Shown here piece after piece: positions 20,227 to 27,712 of a DNA stretch of 64,000 nt. The stretch covers positions 5,084,001-5,148,000 of the forward strand of contig NZ_JADWYI010000001.1 of the NCBI RefSeq assembly GCF_016904885.1, written 5' to 3'. A program made the position numbers and the translations under genes. The DNA is from Archangium primigenium. GTDB taxonomy: Bacteria; Myxococcota; Myxococcia; Myxococcales; Myxococcaceae. How positions within the stretch are numbered: the first letter of the stretch is position 1; each line of letters begins with the position of its first letter. Under the pieces are notes generated by a model, which worked only from the letters and a program-made list of their open reading frames with translations, was not told the origin of the DNA and did no database searches.

Positions 20227-20386
20227 CTTTTCTAGTGGCGTAGCTTGGTGGAAGCCGACTCCAATGATGCTGCGTTACAACAACTCGACACCTTATGACC
20301 ACCAATGGAGTGCCGGAGGTCTACGAGTAATTGGACCATCAGCTGGGAAAAGGTTTACGCGCTGTAACGTAGCCCTGTAAAAATAA

Positions 20387-20414
20387 TTGATTTGCAATAG
20401 CCTTTTTGTACAAT
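20387..20414 (+). promoter_or_regulatory. sigma-70-like promoter of the island ATPase gene
   Basis: A -35-like TTGATT (20387-20392) and a -10-like TACAAT (20409-20414) are separated by 16 bp in AT-rich DNA. Transcription would start near 20421, leaving a short leader that contains the GGAG at 20427-20430. Such a consensus-like promoter is rare elsewhere in this GC-rich window. Confidence 0.55.
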
Positions 20415-20435
20415 CAAAGAAGAACAGGAGCAAGC

Positions 20436-21737
20436 ATGACCGTCGGTGTCGAGCGCAAGCTTTCCGAGGTATTTGGCGTAGCTCGTGGCATTCCGCTAAA
20501 TTATGTGCGTCGCGCATATGTTGACGACTTGTTTATCAATAGCCTCTCCAGAGACAAGCACATTGTTGTCTTTGGGGGATCCAAGCAGGGAAAAACCAGC
20601 CTTCGAAAACAGACACTGAATGAGGACGATTACGTTGTCGTTCAGTGCGGCAACACGACAACGCGGGCACAAATATACGAAATGTTGCTCAAGTGTGCGG
20701 GAGCGCACGTTACAGCCACTGACAAAAGGACCACGACGGGTACAGCCAAATTCGATGTAACCGTATCAGCCAAGGGGAAAGTGCCACTTGTTGCGGAAGC
20801 AAGTGGTAGCGGCGGCGGTGGGTATCAAAAAACAACGACGACAGAGGTTTCTGGGAGCCGGTTTGAAATTGATCCATCAGATCCCAATGACGTCATCCGA
20901 GTGCTTAAGGCAGCAGAGTTTAGCAAGTACGTAATTCTGGAGGACTTTCACTATTTATCAGAGGAGGTCCAAAGAGAGATTGCGTTCGACCTGAAGGCCT
21001 TTCATGAGAAGTCAAATTTGGTCTTTGTCGTTGTAGGGGTCTGGCTGGAATCAAACAAACTTGTCCTATACAATGGAGACTTGGCGGGACGTCTTGTGCC
21101 AGTGGACGCAGATCGATGGGATCCCTCTGATCTAAGTCAAGTCATTGAGGAAGGCGAAAAACTTCTCAATGTCGAGTTTCCTGAGTCCGTCAAGAAAGAG
21201 GTGCTTGATCGTTGTCAAAACAACGTGGGTGTTTTGCAGGAGACCTGTTATCGTCTTTGCGAGAGAGCTAATGTCTGGCGCACACAGCCGCAGTTATTGA
21301 GCGTTGGCTCTGTGAGCGAAGTTGATGTGATAATTCATGACATTGGAACAGAGCAGGCAGGTAGATATCAAAAATTTCTTGAGGATTTTTCGGAGGGCCT
21401 GAACAAGACCGAACTGGAGATGTACAAGTGGATAGCATATGTCGCCATCACGTCGGATCCGGCAGACCTCAAGCGCGGATTGAAGATGTCGTACATATTC
21501 AGAACTCTGAATGAGGTCCACCCAACGAGGAAAGGTCAGTTACAGCAAAACAATGTCACGCAAGCACTTGCCAAGATTGGAAAGCTTCAGCACAAGAACC
21601 ATGTGAAGCCGACGATTCTTGATTTTGATACGAGCGAAAACCGACTGCGTGTGACCGATAGTGGATTCATCCTTTACTTGATTACCCAAGAGCGAAAGGC
21701 TTTGCTCGAAACCATTGGTGTAGAGATGCCTCCCTAA
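20436..21737 (+). CDS. orphan P-loop ATPase in an AT-rich island
   Basis: A 433-residue protein with Walker A GGSKQGKTS (about 47-55) and Walker B YVILEDFH (about 165-172), then helical regions and a C-terminal winged-helix-like part. The closest general class is AAA/STAND-type ATPases carried on genomic islands; I do not recognise a named family. A Gly/Ser-rich insert (about 120-132) lies between the Walker motifs. The ATG at 20436 has GGAG 5 bases upstream. Base composition is far lower in GC than surrounding genes (28 of 60 bases G or C at 20881-20940), and transposase relics follow, so recent transfer is likely. A defence or stress role is only a hypothesis. Confidence 0.75.
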   Translation: MTVGVERKLSEVFGVARGIPLNYVRRAYVDDLFINSLSRDKHIVVFGGSKQGKTSLRKQTLNEDDYVVVQCGNTTTRAQIYEMLLKCAGAHVTATDKRTTTGTAKFDVTVSAKGKVPLVAEASGSGGGGYQKTTTTEVSGSRFEIDPSDPNDVIRVLKAAEFSKYVILEDFHYLSEEVQREIAFDLKAFHEKSNLVFVVVGVWLESNKLVLYNGDLAGRLVPVDADRWDPSDLSQVIEEGEKLLNVEFPESVKKEVLDRCQNNVGVLQETCYRLCERANVWRTQPQLLSVGSVSEVDVIIHDIGTEQAGRYQKFLEDFSEGLNKTELEMYKWIAYVAITSDPADLKRGLKMSYIFRTLNEVHPTRKGQLQQNNVTQALAKIGKLQHKNHVKPTILDFDTSENRLRVTDSGFILYLITQERKALLETIGVEMPP

Positions 21738-21793
21738 CGCAGGACCCGATTGAAATGACTTCTTAAGTCGCATTGTTCCAAGTGGGGCTGATC

Positions 21794-22053
21794 TGGGACT
21801 GGCCCGCTTTTGTGGCTCTCCCGCACTTTATGTGCACGAGGCTCATCCAGCGAGGAGCATGCGACGGCGCAGCAATTCAAAACTGGCTCGACCGTACATC
21901 TGTCGTTTGACTCGCTCATCGTCGGTTGTACGCGTCAGGCTCGTTGCCCGCTGTTCCCCCCTGGTCGCCCACTTGCGAAACACCCCAGCGACAAGCCACG
22001 TCCAGCGGCACGTGCACATAAAGTGCGGGAGAGCCAAAAGCGGGCCAGTCCCA
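21794..22053 (-). mobile_element. ISL3-like mini-element with 43-45 bp inverted ends
   Basis: The ends 21794-21838 and 22011-22053 are inverted repeats that match throughout apart from a 2-base indel. Between them the reverse strand encodes KRQMYGRASFELLRRRM, which resembles the C-terminus of ISL3-family transposases; the preceding residues are degenerate. Only about 170 bp remain between the ends, so most of the transposase is deleted and the element is at best mobilised in trans. Its right end touches the IS5-like relic directly. Confidence 0.65.
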
Positions 22054-22221
22054 AAAGCGCGGCGTTGGGCCGTAGAGCGAACCCATGCCTGGCTCCCGCG
22101 TTTCCGTCGGCTGTTGGTGCGTTGGGAGAAGCGCGAAGACACCTACCTCGGGATGCTGCACTTCGCCCTGGGCATCATCACCTGGTTCCACGCCTTCCTC
22201 CGAAATAGGCTCTTATTGGCT
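22054..22221 (+). pseudogene. IS5-family transposase C-terminal relic
   Basis: The frame encodes RRWAVERTHAWLPRFRRLLV and then RWEKREDTYLGMLH, the C-terminal end of IS5/IS1182-type transposases including the Glu in VERTHAW that serves as the third catalytic residue. Everything upstream is missing and replaced by the inverted-repeat mini-element, so this is a non-functional fragment. Confidence 0.75.
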
Positions 22222-22272
22222 TCAGCTCCGCCAACTGGCATGATGTGTGCCGACCAAAGCTAGGAGCATTTT

Positions 22273-23022
22273 ATGAAGATCCCGTGTTTTGCTATACCAT
22301 TTGGTATTCTGATAACTCTCCTGGCGAGTCAGCCCGCCCACTCAGGTTCCGCGCAACAGGAAGAAAAGCAGCAGCCGATTACCCGAACAAAGCCGCTGAG
22401 TGAAGTCGGTCTTGCCCTTGCCGTACCCGACCTTGTCGTCTCTGTCGAGAACGGTGTCTGTGCGAGCAACATGGCATGGGCAGACATTGGTCAAGAAAAA
22501 ATTCTCGATGCCTATGCTCAAGAGTGCGCTCACATCTTCGTCGAGCCCAAAGCCATTGTCAGTACGCCCGGGCTGCTTTTCATCGGTGGCGCCTTCGGCT
22601 CCACCTCAAGCCAGTTCCTGTTGGGTCCCAGCGCTGCGATTGGCGCAGGGGCGTCCATTCCCATCATCAGGCCTACCCTGACCTACCGGGAGAGTAAAAG
22701 TAACAAGGTCGAGTTTATTCTCCCTCGACGGACGTCGTTCACAATGAACTTTTTGGTATCTGGAAACGTCGGCGTGGCAGGCATGCTGTTCCCGAATGCA
22801 GGTGGTTCCGACCAACCCGCTCCCGCTGAGATCGGCTTTACGGTCGGACTTTACGGGGCTCCAGAGTTCGCGTGGATCTCGTATGACCCAGCCGCACAGC
22901 AGCGGTACAGGATTGGGTTCTCGCTCGGAGTCATTGCTGGGTACTTGGGAGGTTCATCGACGGTGGGGCCAGCTTTTATCGTTGGCGTGCAGCCTGGTCT
23001 CGTCATTAACTTTGCACCCTGA
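22273..23022 (+). CDS. hypothetical secreted protein
   Basis: A 249-residue protein with a signal peptide (cleavage probably after the Ala/His/Ser near residue 25). The mature part is rich in Gly, Pro and aromatic residues in alternating hydrophobic stretches, and the C-terminus ends in a Phe, as some outer-membrane beta-barrel proteins do, though not convincingly. The ATG at 22273 follows a GGAG. The next gene starts 17 bp downstream, so the two form an operon. AT-richer than the flanking chromosome. Function unknown. Confidence 0.65.
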   Translation: MKIPCFAIPFGILITLLASQPAHSGSAQQEEKQQPITRTKPLSEVGLALAVPDLVVSVENGVCASNMAWADIGQEKILDAYAQECAHIFVEPKAIVSTPGLLFIGGAFGSTSSQFLLGPSAAIGAGASIPIIRPTLTYRESKSNKVEFILPRRTSFTMNFLVSGNVGVAGMLFPNAGGSDQPAPAEIGFTVGLYGAPEFAWISYDPAAQQRYRIGFSLGVIAGYLGGSSTVGPAFIVGVQPGLVINFAP

Positions 23023-23039
23023 TAGTCGAAAGGCAAGCT

Positions 23040-24401
23040 ATGATACGGCGCTTTGCCGTGTTGTTACTCGTTCCGCTGCTATCTTCTTGCGCGATGTTCC
23101 GCAATCTCTTCGAGCCCACGCCCACGCTGATTGGGTGTGCCTTCAGTGGCGTTTCGGAGGTGGCCAAGCTGAATCGATACCCAGCAGATGGACGTACCGC
23201 CAAGGTCTTGGTCGATCTATTGGACCAAGCCTACCTCAGCAACTGGGTCCGGCTTGAAGCTAGTGCGGAGGTGTCAAATGCTGTGTCACTTATTACTCCC
23301 TCTGGTGAGCGCGTCATCGTCTACCGGCCGGACTTTCTCGACAGAGAAGTGCCAGAGGCCTTTGTTGCTTTGGTGATTGCCCATGAACTCGGCCATCATA
23401 TCGAGGGAGATACGGCTGGCTTAGCCGTGACGCAGGCACGCCCGCCGAAAGAAGCTGAACTCCGGGCAGATGCATTCGCTGCCAAGATGTTGAAGGTCCG
23501 AGGATACCGCGAAGAGCAGATCGTCGAAGCTCTCGACCTGCTGGTAGGGAAACTGCCTGCGTCAACGCCCACCCCAGAGGAGCGGCGGAGGTTGATTCTG
23601 AAGAATTACAAGAGGACGCGAGACCTGCAGACGGAACTGGGGGACTCGCGGGCAGCTTACGCTCTACTTGAGACGAAAAATTCAGCGCTTGCTACAACCA
23701 AGGCTGAGGTAGAAGCGGAATTAAAGAAGAAGAGCGACGATTTGGATGACCATACCTCCTGGGCCGAGCGTGCCGGGAAAAAGGACAAAAAAAAGACTGT
23801 GCTAGAGAGTGTGGTGATGAGCGTAAGGCTGAATGATGGTGACATCACCGACTTTACCCAGCCCGGGAAGTATACGGCGGATGTGGAAATCACCTACCAT
23901 GTGCTCGCATTGGAGGACACCGTGGAAGGTGACCTTGAAGAGGTGTTCCACGTATCGCCCGAGAGCAGCACCACTGTGTCGTGGGTTCCGAGTACCGAGA
24001 AGTACTCTCTCCACCACAAAGATCCAGTACGGGTGGCGGCGTTCTTTCGCTTCAGCCTTAAGGCCAGAGAGCGCCGGACTATCCAGACGTCAGCTCGGTA
24101 TGAGTATACACTTCCGCTATCTCCCAGCAGGAAAACTCATGGCGTCGAACCAAGTCAGGCGGATGATGCGTTTTTCTACATCAACCAGTATGACTACATT
24201 AATGAGTTGGTCCTGGTAATTAGGTCATCCAAGCCACTGCGGGAGCCCATGAAGGGGGATGCCCTACTGGAGAGGGAAGTCGACAACTTCAAGATTGGCT
24301 CCACCCCCCTCCTCCAATCCGAGTCTGGCTATTCGGTTGCCACCTTCCGGTGGCGCAATCTGGAGCCGCGACAAATTGCTGGGCTGCTAATCCGTCGCTG
24401 A
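23040..24401 (+). CDS. lipoprotein with M48-like metallopeptidase motif
   Basis: A 453-residue protein with a lipoprotein signal (Cys17) and a zinc-peptidase motif HELGHH at about residues 115-120; EAELRADAF (138-146) supplies the likely third zinc ligand. This pattern matches M48-type metallopeptidases. A charged helical segment (about 200-245) precedes a C-terminal domain of unknown type (about 260-450). It would act in the periplasm or at the outer membrane. It lies 17 bp after a secreted-protein gene, so the two may act together. The ATG at 23040 is preceded by AAAGG. Base composition is lower in GC than the chromosome. Confidence 0.75.
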   Translation: MIRRFAVLLLVPLLSSCAMFRNLFEPTPTLIGCAFSGVSEVAKLNRYPADGRTAKVLVDLLDQAYLSNWVRLEASAEVSNAVSLITPSGERVIVYRPDFLDREVPEAFVALVIAHELGHHIEGDTAGLAVTQARPPKEAELRADAFAAKMLKVRGYREEQIVEALDLLVGKLPASTPTPEERRRLILKNYKRTRDLQTELGDSRAAYALLETKNSALATTKAEVEAELKKKSDDLDDHTSWAERAGKKDKKKTVLESVVMSVRLNDGDITDFTQPGKYTADVEITYHVLALEDTVEGDLEEVFHVSPESSTTVSWVPSTEKYSLHHKDPVRVAAFFRFSLKARERRTIQTSARYEYTLPLSPSRKTHGVEPSQADDAFFYINQYDYINELVLVIRSSKPLREPMKGDALLEREVDNFKIGSTPLLQSESGYSVATFRWRNLEPRQIAGLLIRR

Positions 24402-24539
24402 TCTATTTACTATCTGCTCTGATCCGCGACGGGTTGCATAGTGGAGCGGCTGGTGCCAACGCGTCGCACATATAGAGGACGGTGGTACATGCGACGCAGC
24501 AGAAGGTAAACGCGGCGACGAACCTCATTCACGGCTCGT

Positions 24540-25479
24540 GTGAATCAGTCGGAGAGGAAGAAGAGCCAAGGAGTTGGAGCACGGCCTGGGGTCGCGAGCG
24601 GAAGTAACCCAAGCCCGAGCACTGGTCGTCTGCGGTGCCAGGGCGCGTTGTCGATGCCGAGGAGAACTTCGGGGTAGGTCTCGGTGGGATATGCCGGGGA
24701 GACATCCAGCAGGTGGTGGCAGAACGCCACCTGCAGTTGCTTCGTCTTGGACAGTCCGTCGTGGCGGCGAGTCCGGGTGAGACTGCCGTACAGGCGACTC
24801 GTGACCTTGCCCGTGAGGACATTGGCCGAGGCGAACGTGTGCACCACGTCCTTGCAATTCCGCGTCCCAATGACAGGGCGCTCGCCCTTGAGCCCCAGGG
24901 TCACCGTGAGCGTGGGCACTATGGGAAAGCGCGCCTCGTCTTGGCTCAGCAGGACAAGTTCGCCTCGCTCGGCTTGGTGTTTTTCCCACCCAGTTCCCGC
25001 CGCGACTATCGCTGGCTCTCGGGGCCGGCGCGTAAGAAGCGGCAGGTGGGTCGATACAGGTGCACGCCGTGGCGGCAGAAGTCGCCCATGGCCGTTTCCT
25101 GGACGCGGATATCGCTCTGGCGATAGAGGAAGTCAGCCAGTGCCATGTGCGTCCAACTAGCGCGTGCGATGTCACACGCCTCGGGGCCGTGGCGTATCCA
25201 GGAGAGAATCGTCTCGGTCGGTTCCTTTGGAATCAGCGGCGTCCTGCCGGGGGCCCAGCGAATCCGTAGTCCTTTCCAGGCCTCCCGCCCGGTAACGAGC
25301 CAAGAAGCGCTGGACGTTGCGGGTCTTCGTCCCCGAGTCCTCTGCAATTTACGACTGGAGTCGGCCTCTCGCTGTCCTCAGCACCGCTTGGCACCGCTCG
25401 CGCAGGCGTCGGTCCTCCGTGTCGCGGAAGCATGTCTCCAACCGCTTGTCTGCTCCGGACTCAATTCCAGCAGGCTCAT
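24540..25479 (-). pseudogene. IS630-family transposase relic
   Basis: Fragments on the reverse strand in different frames add up to an IS630-type transposase. The N-terminal helix-turn-helix part starts at about 25479 (MSLLELSPEQ) and includes RNVQRFLARYRAGGLER. The middle is ALADFLYRQSDIRVQETAMG. The DDE part includes LLSQDEARFP and IDNAPWHR. An in-frame stop interrupts it at about 25350 and at least two frameshifts follow; the segment with the third catalytic residue is absent near 24540. It is not functional. The rest of the 24402-25535 interval holds nothing else I can support. Confidence 0.75.
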
Positions 25480-25535
25480 GCTCTTTCAATACATGAACCC
25501 CGACGATTTCTTCCGAGCCGTGAATGAGCCCGCCG

Positions 25536-25952
25536 TCAGTGCTTTAAGACAATCCGGCCTTGCGAATCGATGCCGTAGGTGGCCCCCGCATCGAAGACGA
25601 TGTCATCGATGTTGCATCGGTCGAGATTGGCGGCGATGGTCACGAAGAAGACGCCTTCAGCGCTCTTGAGGACAGAGACGTCGTAGTTCTCCCGCGACGA
25701 GAGACAGCGCGCCAGCTTCTCGTCGTGGGAACTCGCCTTGGCTCCAGGCGGCAGGAACTCGTCCATCGCGATTTCGATGGCCTTCAAGCTTTGACCATCG
25801 AGGGAAATGCTGCCCTCGGCCGAACTCGGAGGTTTGACCTTTTCCATTTCCTCGGGCGCAGCCCATTCCGCTTTCTTTTGAAGGTGAAGGCGGTAGTTGC
25901 ATCCCGTCAGAATGAACGCGCAAAGCAACGGAGTGAGAAGAGAGAGCTTCAT
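25536..25952 (-). CDS. small lipoprotein
   Basis: A 138-residue protein with a lipoprotein signal (lipobox LTGC near residue 18). The mature part is short and contains no domain I recognise. The ATG at 25952 has AAAGGA about 9 bases upstream. It begins 14 bp after the stop of the upstream acyl-CoA dehydrogenase gene on the same strand, so it may be transcribed from there. It marks the edge between the island and ordinary chromosome. Confidence 0.7.
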   Translation of the reverse strand: MKLSLLTPLLCAFILTGCNYRLHLQKKAEWAAPEEMEKVKPPSSAEGSISLDGQSLKAIEIAMDEFLPPGAKASSHDEKLARCLSSRENYDVSVLKSAEGVFFVTIAANLDRCNIDDIVFDAGATYGIDSQGRIVLKH

Positions 25953-25966
25953 GGGTCTTCGTCCTT

Positions 25967-27628
25967 TCACACCACCAGCAGGCGGGACTCGTCCAGGTCC
26001 ATGTCGGCGATCAGGTCCACTCCGTTGCGCGTGAGGCGCCGCGCCGCCGCCATGCTCCTCGGGCCGTGGCCATGCTCCAGACACCACTGGGCGTGCTCCA
26101 CGAGCAACGCCAACTCGTAGGTGCGGCCCAGCGTCAGCGCGAACCGCCGCGCCCCGGCCTCCACCTCCGCCGGATTCGCCATCGCCTTCGTCACCCAGAC
26201 CCGCGCCTTCTCCAGCGCGTCCTGCGCCGCCACCACGCTCGGCCGCAGGCCCGTGTCCTTCGCCGTCGCCAGCCGCCGCTCGGCGTCCAGGTACAGCGCC
26301 TCCAGCGCCCCGTCCTTCGCCATCGCCCGCAGCGTGTCCAGCGAGAGCACGTTCGTCGTCCCCTCCCAGATGGACAGCACCTGCGCGTCCGCCATCAGCC
26401 GCGGAATGCCCGTGTCCTCCACGTAGCCCGCGCCGCCGAAGCTCTCCACCACCTCGGACGTGACGTGCACCGTCTGCCGGCCCGTCGTCAGCTTCGCCAA
26501 GGGCGTCACCAGCCGCTGGAGCAACAGCTCCTCCTCCGTCGCCGTGCCCGCCTCCATCTTGCCCAGGAGCTCCGCCGCCCGGAACGCCAGGAGGAAGCCG
26601 CCGTGGAACTCGGCCTCCAGGCCCGCCAGCGTGTCCACGTGCAGCGGCTTCTCCGACAGGGGCGCGCCGAACTGCACCCGCCGCTTCGCGAAGTCGCGCG
26701 CCAGCGCCAGCGCCCGCCGCATCATCCACGTGCTCGCCACCGCGTTCCACGTGCGCGTCACGTTCAGCATGGACGCCATGTTTCGGATGCCGTCCGTCAG
26801 CCCCGCCACCGGCACCGCCTGCGCTCCGTCCAGCGTCAGCTCCGCCGTGGGCACCTTGCGCGTGCCCAGCTTGTCCTTGAGGCGGTTGATTTGAATCCCA
26901 TTCATCCGCCCGTCCGCGCCCCGCGTCTCCACGAAGAACAGCGCCAGGCCCTTGCCGCCCGCGCCGTTGCCCTCGGGGCGCGCCAGCGTCAGCGCCATCT
27001 GCGCCGTCGTCGCCGAGGTGAACCACTTGGTGCCATACAGCCGCCAGCCCTCGGGCGTCTGCCGCGCCACCGTCTGCGTCAGGCCCACGTCCGAGCCGCC
27101 CGTGCGCTCCGTCATCCACTGGCCCGACGTCCAGAACGTCTTGGGGTCGCGCGACGTCAGGTGGGGCAGGGCGCGCGCCACCAGCTCCTGGTTGCCCAGA
27201 CTCAGCAGCGTGCGCGCCGCCCCGTCCGTCATCGCCAGCGGGCAGGAGTAGATGTCCAGGGAGGGCTGGACGAGGTAGTTCAGCGCGAACTGGTGCAGGC
27301 GCGAGCGGTCCCCGTGCTTGCGCTCGTAGGCCACCGCCACGAGGCCCCGCTTCGCCGTCAGGACCTCGGCCTCCTTCCAGAGCGGGGACACCTCGATGTG
27401 GTCCACCCGCTGGCCCCAGGCGTTCCACTGGGTCAGCTCGGGCTCGTTGAGCCGGTCCCTGAGCTGGAACGCGTAGAAGTACCCGCCCGACAGCTCGCCC
27501 AGCTCCCGGAACTCCTCTTCCAGTCCGGCCTTCATGTCCCGGGGCAGGACGCGGTCGAGGTAGCCGCGCAGGAGCGCGTCGTCGTCGTACTGGTTGCCCA
27601 GCCGAGGGGGATCCTGGAAGAAGCTCAT
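25967..27628 (-). CDS. acyl-CoA dehydrogenase family protein (AidB-like)
   Basis: A 553-residue protein with the full acyl-CoA dehydrogenase fold: an N-terminal helical region, the flavin/substrate segment SGQWMTERTGGSDVG, the beta-domain (GTKWFTSATTAQMALTLARP) and the C-terminal four-helix bundle. The length and the extra C-terminal segment match the AidB group, which protects DNA from alkylation or acts on branched acyl-CoA; the substrate is unknown. The ATG at 27628 is the first in-frame start. It is divergent from the AAA ATPase gene, with an 84-bp gap. Confidence 0.88.
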   Translation of the reverse strand: MSFFQDPPRLGNQYDDDALLRGYLDRVLPRDMKAGLEEEFRELGELSGGYFYAFQLRDRLNEPELTQWNAWGQRVDHIEVSPLWKEAEVLTAKRGLVAVAYERKHGDRSRLHQFALNYLVQPSLDIYSCPLAMTDGAARTLLSLGNQELVARALPHLTSRDPKTFWTSGQWMTERTGGSDVGLTQTVARQTPEGWRLYGTKWFTSATTAQMALTLARPEGNGAGGKGLALFFVETRGADGRMNGIQINRLKDKLGTRKVPTAELTLDGAQAVPVAGLTDGIRNMASMLNVTRTWNAVASTWMMRRALALARDFAKRRVQFGAPLSEKPLHVDTLAGLEAEFHGGFLLAFRAAELLGKMEAGTATEEELLLQRLVTPLAKLTTGRQTVHVTSEVVESFGGAGYVEDTGIPRLMADAQVLSIWEGTTNVLSLDTLRAMAKDGALEALYLDAERRLATAKDTGLRPSVVAAQDALEKARVWVTKAMANPAEVEAGARRFALTLGRTYELALLVEHAQWCLEHGHGPRSMAAARRLTRNGVDLIADMDLDESRLLVV

Positions 27629-27712
27629 GGCCGGGGAGGCTAGCACCGCCGAGAGGGTGGGAAAGGGGTGTCGACTTCCTGCTAGAGTCGGCGGCCTCAA
27701 CCCGGAGCATGC

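Follow-up and report, generated by a model that had tools for sequence, protein, structure and literature searches.

An AT-rich island at an insertion hotspot of Archangium primigenium carries an ATPase of the phage-defence candidate family PDC-S59

Closest described systems

PDC-S59 is listed in PADLOC-DB 2.0 as a phage-defence candidate (PDLC05049). The PDC families were gathered by guilt-by-embedding (PMC12988326, PMC10855318), and PDC-S59 was proposed by genome context alone; we found no study of it in the literature searched and no report of a test. Here we describe a new myxobacterial member of this known, unvalidated family, an ATPase encoded in an AT-rich island of Archangium primigenium, a myxobacterium with a 9.49-Mb genome. 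The window analysed comprises 64,000 nt (contig NZ_JADWYI010000001.1, positions 5,084,001-5,148,000), and all coordinates given below and in Table 1 are window positions. The ATPase and PDC-S59 agree in the full-length profile match, in their organization as a single gene and in their scattered mobile or AT-rich contexts, and no structural difference separates them.

The ATPase shares an AAA+ core, a helical domain and a winged helix with two archaeal STAND-type ATPases (2qen and 2fna; 321 residues aligned, 13-16% identity). Unlike these proteins, the PDC-S59 family has a hairpin insert, with a disordered loop, between the two Walker motifs, as well as the signature E-D/N-F-H-Y. PDC-S01, also an ATPase-based single-gene candidate, shows weak similarity to the ATPase in the Walker A region (E 0.004) but carries a PD-(D/E)XK nuclease fused to its own ATPase (PMC12988326), a domain that the island ATPase does not contain. 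The likeness to the accessory defence genes that P2-like phages carry, such as old and tin, consists in the portal-side position of ATPase relatives in two contigs, position alone having been compared; anti-phage activity has been shown for old and tin, whereas PDC-S59 has the status of a candidate.

The island is mosaic and stems from two or more acquisitions. In the reading that we prefer, with a probability of roughly 0.6, separate acquisitions took place at a hotspot, the PDC-S59 ATPase most likely serves its carrier against phages, and the neighbouring genes for a secreted protein and a zinc-peptidase lipoprotein form an independent envelope operon.

Family and fold of the ATPase

Residues 7-414 of the ATPase align with positions 3-399 of the 428 positions of the PDC-S59 profile (E 5.1e-80), which disposes of the description as an orphan given in an earlier note on this DNA. 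Each of the 32 aligned relatives likewise matches PDC-S59, and none matches another PADLOC family. The nearest full-length relatives are 41-43% identical to the ATPase and a truncated copy from Hydrocarboniphaga is 52% identical. Pfam matches to McrBC and ETX_MTX2 lay far below the cut-off and were rejected. Walker A is intact, as had been noted earlier (GGSKQGKT, residues 47-54), and G47, S49, K50, G52-T54, F171-H172-Y173, R219 and W228 are invariant in the 32 sequences, in which Walker B consists of E or D followed by D or N. RuvB profiles match residues 219-279, which suggests that R219 is a candidate arginine finger.

The AlphaFold model obtained with the 32 sequences has a predicted local distance difference test score (pLDDT) of 84.3, with the loop 112-138 as the exception. 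Over its whole length the model matches archaeal PABY2304 (2qen; Z 18.6, root-mean-square deviation 5.2, 321 residues) and then archaeal SSO1545 (2fna; Z 17.3), followed by Cdc6/Orc1, TnsC, MuB and CED-4. The ATPase is predicted to be a STAND/initiator-type AAA+ protein with a winged helix: the succession of AAA+ core, helical domain and winged-helix domain typical of STAND proteins is seen in the model and in the matches to 2qen, 2fna and CED-4. The sensor repeats and the effector domain of STAND proteins are absent from the 433 residues, which are taken up by the core, helical and winged-helix regions with no further Pfam domain, and neither the Pfam scan nor the model revealed a nuclease or other effector domain. 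The ATPase may work like a STAND switch, though it is not classed as a complete STAND protein.

The gene is preceded by a sigma-70-like promoter, and a Shine-Dalgarno-like AGGAG lies between the promoter and the ATG at 20436. The promoter mentioned in the earlier note is thus present and well placed, but the number of such sites (3 found, 2.6 expected by chance after shuffling) does not exceed chance, and the site alone means little.

Carriage by plasmids and predicted prophages

Matches to the ATPase occur in 8 of 195 Myxococcota genomes and in none of 14 control genomes. In the tree, the ATPase joins the Hydrocarboniphaga copy (99/97) inside a clade composed mostly of Pseudomonadota and prophage sequences (96/91), a placement indicative of a non-myxobacterial donor. 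Relatives are carried by eight plasmids, of Shinella, Leisingera, Shewanella, Methylobacterium, Burkholderia, Comamonadaceae, Niallia and Paenibacillus, and their neighbours vary from plasmid to plasmid. The earlier note had advised a search for defence genes beside the ATPase. Two plasmids provide them: in Shewanella the relative lies 76 bases upstream of an AbiTii-family gene (2e-43), and the annotation of the Methylobacterium plasmid places an abortive-infection family gene and BrnT/BrnA nearby. No PHROG family occurs more than twice among the 90 proteins encoded next to ATPase relatives, and a stand-alone gene is therefore favoured. PDC-S59 accordingly appears as a single gene with no fixed partner.

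Forty-three predicted viral contigs encode relatives, at different positions. In L104 the gene is flanked by a Mu-like tail-completion gene and the head-maturation protease; in L109 and L117 it separates the major-tail block from the tape-measure gene; in L098, and by position also in L096, L097 and L099, it comes directly after the phage repressor; and in L087, a filamentous phage, it lies next to Zot. In L088 and L091 it adjoins a P2-like portal gene; the portal-side locus of P2 is an established defence hotspot (PMC9122126, PMC9519451). At nearly every locus the relatives are lower in GC content than their carrier. Two members from viral contigs, used as DNA queries, had no match in E. coli genomes. 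The 427-residue PDC-S59 protein of the Zot-bearing filamentous prophage (L087:1352-2635) represents a large cargo for a small phage.

An island of foreign DNA at an insertion hotspot

GC content is 48-63% across 20227-25966 and near 70% in the flanks; outside the island, 1.3-kb windows of the 64 kb have a mean of 70.5% (standard deviation 3.8, minimum 57.5) compared with 48.1% in the island. The AT-rich island in a GC-rich chromosome that the earlier note described is thereby confirmed, including its count of 28 GC in 60 bases at 20881-20940, which is exact. The ATPase gene has a GC content of 48.3% and a GC content at third codon positions (GC3) of 52, the secreted-protein gene of 56.0% and 60, and the peptidase gene of 55.2% and 63; GC3 of the flanking hydrolase gene is 91. 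The start of the island at 20227 was placed correctly, but its end, put at 25535, was not: the variable interval reaches to about 25966, some 430 bases further, and includes the gene of a 138-residue lipoprotein, which loci L033-L040 of the relatives lack next to the flanking genes.

Neither the secreted protein nor the peptidase has a match in 58 relatives, three congeners included, and among these genomes the ATPase is matched only by distant paralogues (20-26% identical) from three that lie outside the genus. Copies of the island genes in syntenic position and with native composition across the genus, which would contradict a transfer, were looked for with a negative result. The flanking hydrolase is matched in all 21 genomes searched (65-69% identity in congeners and the sister genus). 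When loci L033-L040 were compared by tblastn with the flanking genes, the hydrolase and dehydrogenase genes were found to abut in the sister genus (G010), about 90 bp apart, which supplies the empty site that the earlier note had asked for. In the congeners G002 and G003 the same interval is filled by about 7.1 kb of unrelated genes: a lipoprotein gene and the partner gene that overlaps it occur twice in tandem, and the further genes include one of the Uma2 type. In another relative, G030, the interval holds 2.7 kb of other AT-rich DNA. Because the genes abut in one genome and enclose other inserts in three, the interval between hydrolase and acyl-CoA dehydrogenase is an insertion hotspot. The island DNA is of foreign origin, with an atypical composition, absence from close relatives and a site that is empty or differently filled in them; in this the earlier note was right. 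A defence island in the sense of several clustered systems is not present, the ATPase being the only one of three island proteins scanned with a strong PADLOC match. The hotspot of Archangium-type genomes is a place to look for more accessory cassettes. The tandem cassettes of the congeners (L033:7839-10695 in G002 and L034:7472-10409 in G003) each combine a lipoprotein of about 500 residues with an overlapping partner of about 473 residues; they have no match in Pfam or PADLOC and are possibly pairs of the toxin-immunity type.

Table 1 Features of the island and its flanks in window coordinates
Feature	Position	Strand	Basis
Alpha/beta hydrolase, conserved left flank, 280 residues	19384-20226	+	Pfam Hydrolase_4 3e-11
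Whole variable interval (island), ~5.74 kb	20227-25966		Flanking-gene tblastn in relatives, contents, composition
Sigma-70-like promoter, TTGATT-N16-TACAAT	20387-20414	+	Consensus scan
ATPase, PDC-S59, 433 residues	20436-21737	+	PADLOC PDLC05049 5.1e-80; fold model
Miniature inverted-repeat transposable element (MITE), 260 bp, near-perfect terminal inverted repeats of ~42-45 bp	21794-22053		Repeat search
C-terminal remnant of an IS5-family transposase	~22054-22215	+	NCBIfam NF033580 1.2e-14, last 52 model residues
Secreted protein, signal peptide, no known family, 249 residues	22273-23022	+	Sequence
Zinc-peptidase lipoprotein, lipobox, 453 residues	23040-24401	+	Pfam M48 3e-4
Decayed IS630-family element, full extent ~1005 bp	24523-25528	-	NF033545 7e-4; 29-bp imperfect inverted repeats; broken frame
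Lipoprotein of a multi-copy myxobacterial family, 138 residues	25536-25952	-	13 family matches in host genome
Acyl-CoA dehydrogenase (by sequence), conserved right flank	25967-27710	-	81-89% identical in congeners and sister genus

Proposed function of PDC-S59 and alternatives

From the family assignment and the prophage and plasmid loci we infer a function in phage defence. The lone PDC-S59 gene travels as a passenger of Pseudomonadota prophages and plasmids and most probably protects its carrier against other phages. ATP loading would switch the STAND/initiator-type ATPase, and an oligomer would assemble via the candidate arginine finger R219. Since the ATPase has neither an effector domain nor a partner gene, we favour an oligomer that would use the winged helix of the ATPase itself to act on the DNA of an entering phage or on its replication complex. 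For oligomerization and for DNA as the target, both of which we infer, this sequence of events is a tentative proposal that is rather less than an even bet; its main alternative is a sensor that triggers a host factor. On a broader scale, PDC-S59 may be a widespread effector-less ATPase that plasmids and temperate phages of unrelated types (P2-like, Mu-like, lambda-like and filamentous) use as a stand-alone gene for superinfection exclusion by coating DNA or blocking replication, and that has been domesticated in Archangium; we regard this as conceivable but doubtful. A mechanism of this kind would, with the same reserve, differ from nuclease- or NADase-based defences. The prophage positions provide an independent ground to expect an anti-phage function of a family proposed by context, and they supply genes for its test.

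Several observations weigh against the preferred reading. Most PDC families are unvalidated (PMC12988326), and phage defence by PDC-S59 is a candidate role. Its ATP hydrolysis may be weak, judged from the E-D/E-N of Walker B in place of the usual D-E of AAA+ proteins. Carriage by prophages rests on predicted viral contigs and local phage genes; among 50,697 GenBank phage records the closer queries found no full-length relative, and there was one more distant match, a partial one (1e-7). In the P2-like loci L088 and L091 the other border, on the side of the replication genes, lies beyond the contig ends. The island has been seen in one genome only.

The earlier note had taken ATPase, secreted protein and peptidase for one functional cargo set, delivered in a single event and stranded by the decay of mobile elements. 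The three genes are indeed adjacent, on the same strand, all AT-rich and all absent from relatives. Nevertheless, such a set is very improbable: none of the examined loci of ATPase relatives encodes the secreted protein or the peptidase, GC3 of the ATPase gene (52) differs from that of the pair (60-63), and a MITE and the tail of an IS5 transposase intervene. Stranding by decay is moreover unnecessary for a family that rides on phages and plasmids and a gene that no relic brackets. The defence role that the note considered possible for the set is supported for the ATPase, as a candidate role, by the family match and the prophage and plasmid relatives. It could also be argued that the ATPase is a housekeeping factor of a phage or plasmid, in replication, partition or as a transposition helper of the TnsC/MuB/Orc1 kind, and the remnant of a lost element. 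The fold resembles Orc1/Cdc6, TnsC and MuB, and plasmid copies lie near transfer, recombinase or partition genes. We nonetheless consider this unlikely, though a good deal less so than the single cargo set, because the insertion point varies between phages with no fixed replication or transposase partner, some copies lie within blocks of virion genes, the genes are AT-rich relative to nearly every carrier, and the ATPase matches a listed defence-candidate family over its full length.

The secreted protein and the zinc-peptidase lipoprotein

A gap of 17 bases separates the secreted-protein gene from the peptidase gene, and the two probably form one operon. The pair is an envelope operon independent of the ATPase; a role in the turnover of envelope proteins is a plain guess. 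The secreted protein had no hit in Pfam, PADLOC, NCBIfam, PHROG or PDB and no relatives in the other 194 Myxococcota genomes, plasmids or viral contigs. The peptidase is composed of an M48-like HELGH domain (~76-170), a coiled coil (~180-232) and a C-terminal domain (~237-452). Its assignment to M48 is marginal (21.1 bits against a cut-off of 20.3, with 39 residues aligned); the HELGH motif is intact, as stated in the earlier note, and a further E ligand can be read in KEAELRAD. One weak plasmid match, limited to the peptidase part, was found outside the phylum, and viral contigs contained no relatives. A single-sequence structure prediction was discarded (pLDDT 37). The PADLOC matches to CapP (0.001) and SspE (0.03) were rejected as short and weak. 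CapP is a cytosolic regulator, to which the lipobox of the peptidase is also ill suited.

An interbacterial role, which the earlier note had raised, would make the pair an interbacterial or outer-membrane-exchange system like the SitA lipoproteins of Myxococcus. In favour of this, the two proteins are exported, the zinc motif of the peptidase, itself a lipoprotein, is intact, and tandem cassettes of lipoprotein and partner occupy the same hotspot in congeners. In SitA toxins, however, the C-terminal nuclease domain varies and an immunity gene lies downstream (PMC5562445). No immunity-like gene follows the peptidase, and two Myxococcaceae also encode its C-terminal domain as a separate membrane-anchored protein. 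With nothing found in support of such a role for the peptidase pair specifically, we hold it to be improbable. In one Myxococcaceae locus (L076:9185-11117) the membrane-anchored C-terminal-domain protein adjoins a glutathione-synthetase-like ATP-grasp gene, and both genes are AT-rich.

Insertion-element debris and the 138-residue lipoprotein

The three kinds of transposase relic recorded in the earlier note are present as an ISL3-type MITE, an IS5 tail and a decayed IS630 element. The MITE and the IS5 tail, which adjoins the MITE and is truncated at the start of the MITE, separate the ATPase gene from the secreted protein and peptidase genes. None of the relics brackets the ATPase; they therefore account for later damage and not for its arrival. 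The MITE repeats match those that flank a 1.8-kb ISL3 element in relatives; in L079 such repeats enclose an ISL3 transposase (DDE_Tnp_ISL3 2e-17). The repeats occur in many copies across the host genome and related genomes. The IS5 remnant has copies elsewhere with 81-89% identity, and a second copy of the IS630 element, 88-93% identical to the first and in two pieces, lies at G000:C1:4649441-4650607. MITEs with ISL3-like repeats form a family dispersed in Archangium-type genomes, with a 135-bp version near G000:C1:7942547-7942682. The family of the 138-residue lipoprotein, which has no Pfam entry, shows many matches in relatives, some of them in tandem.

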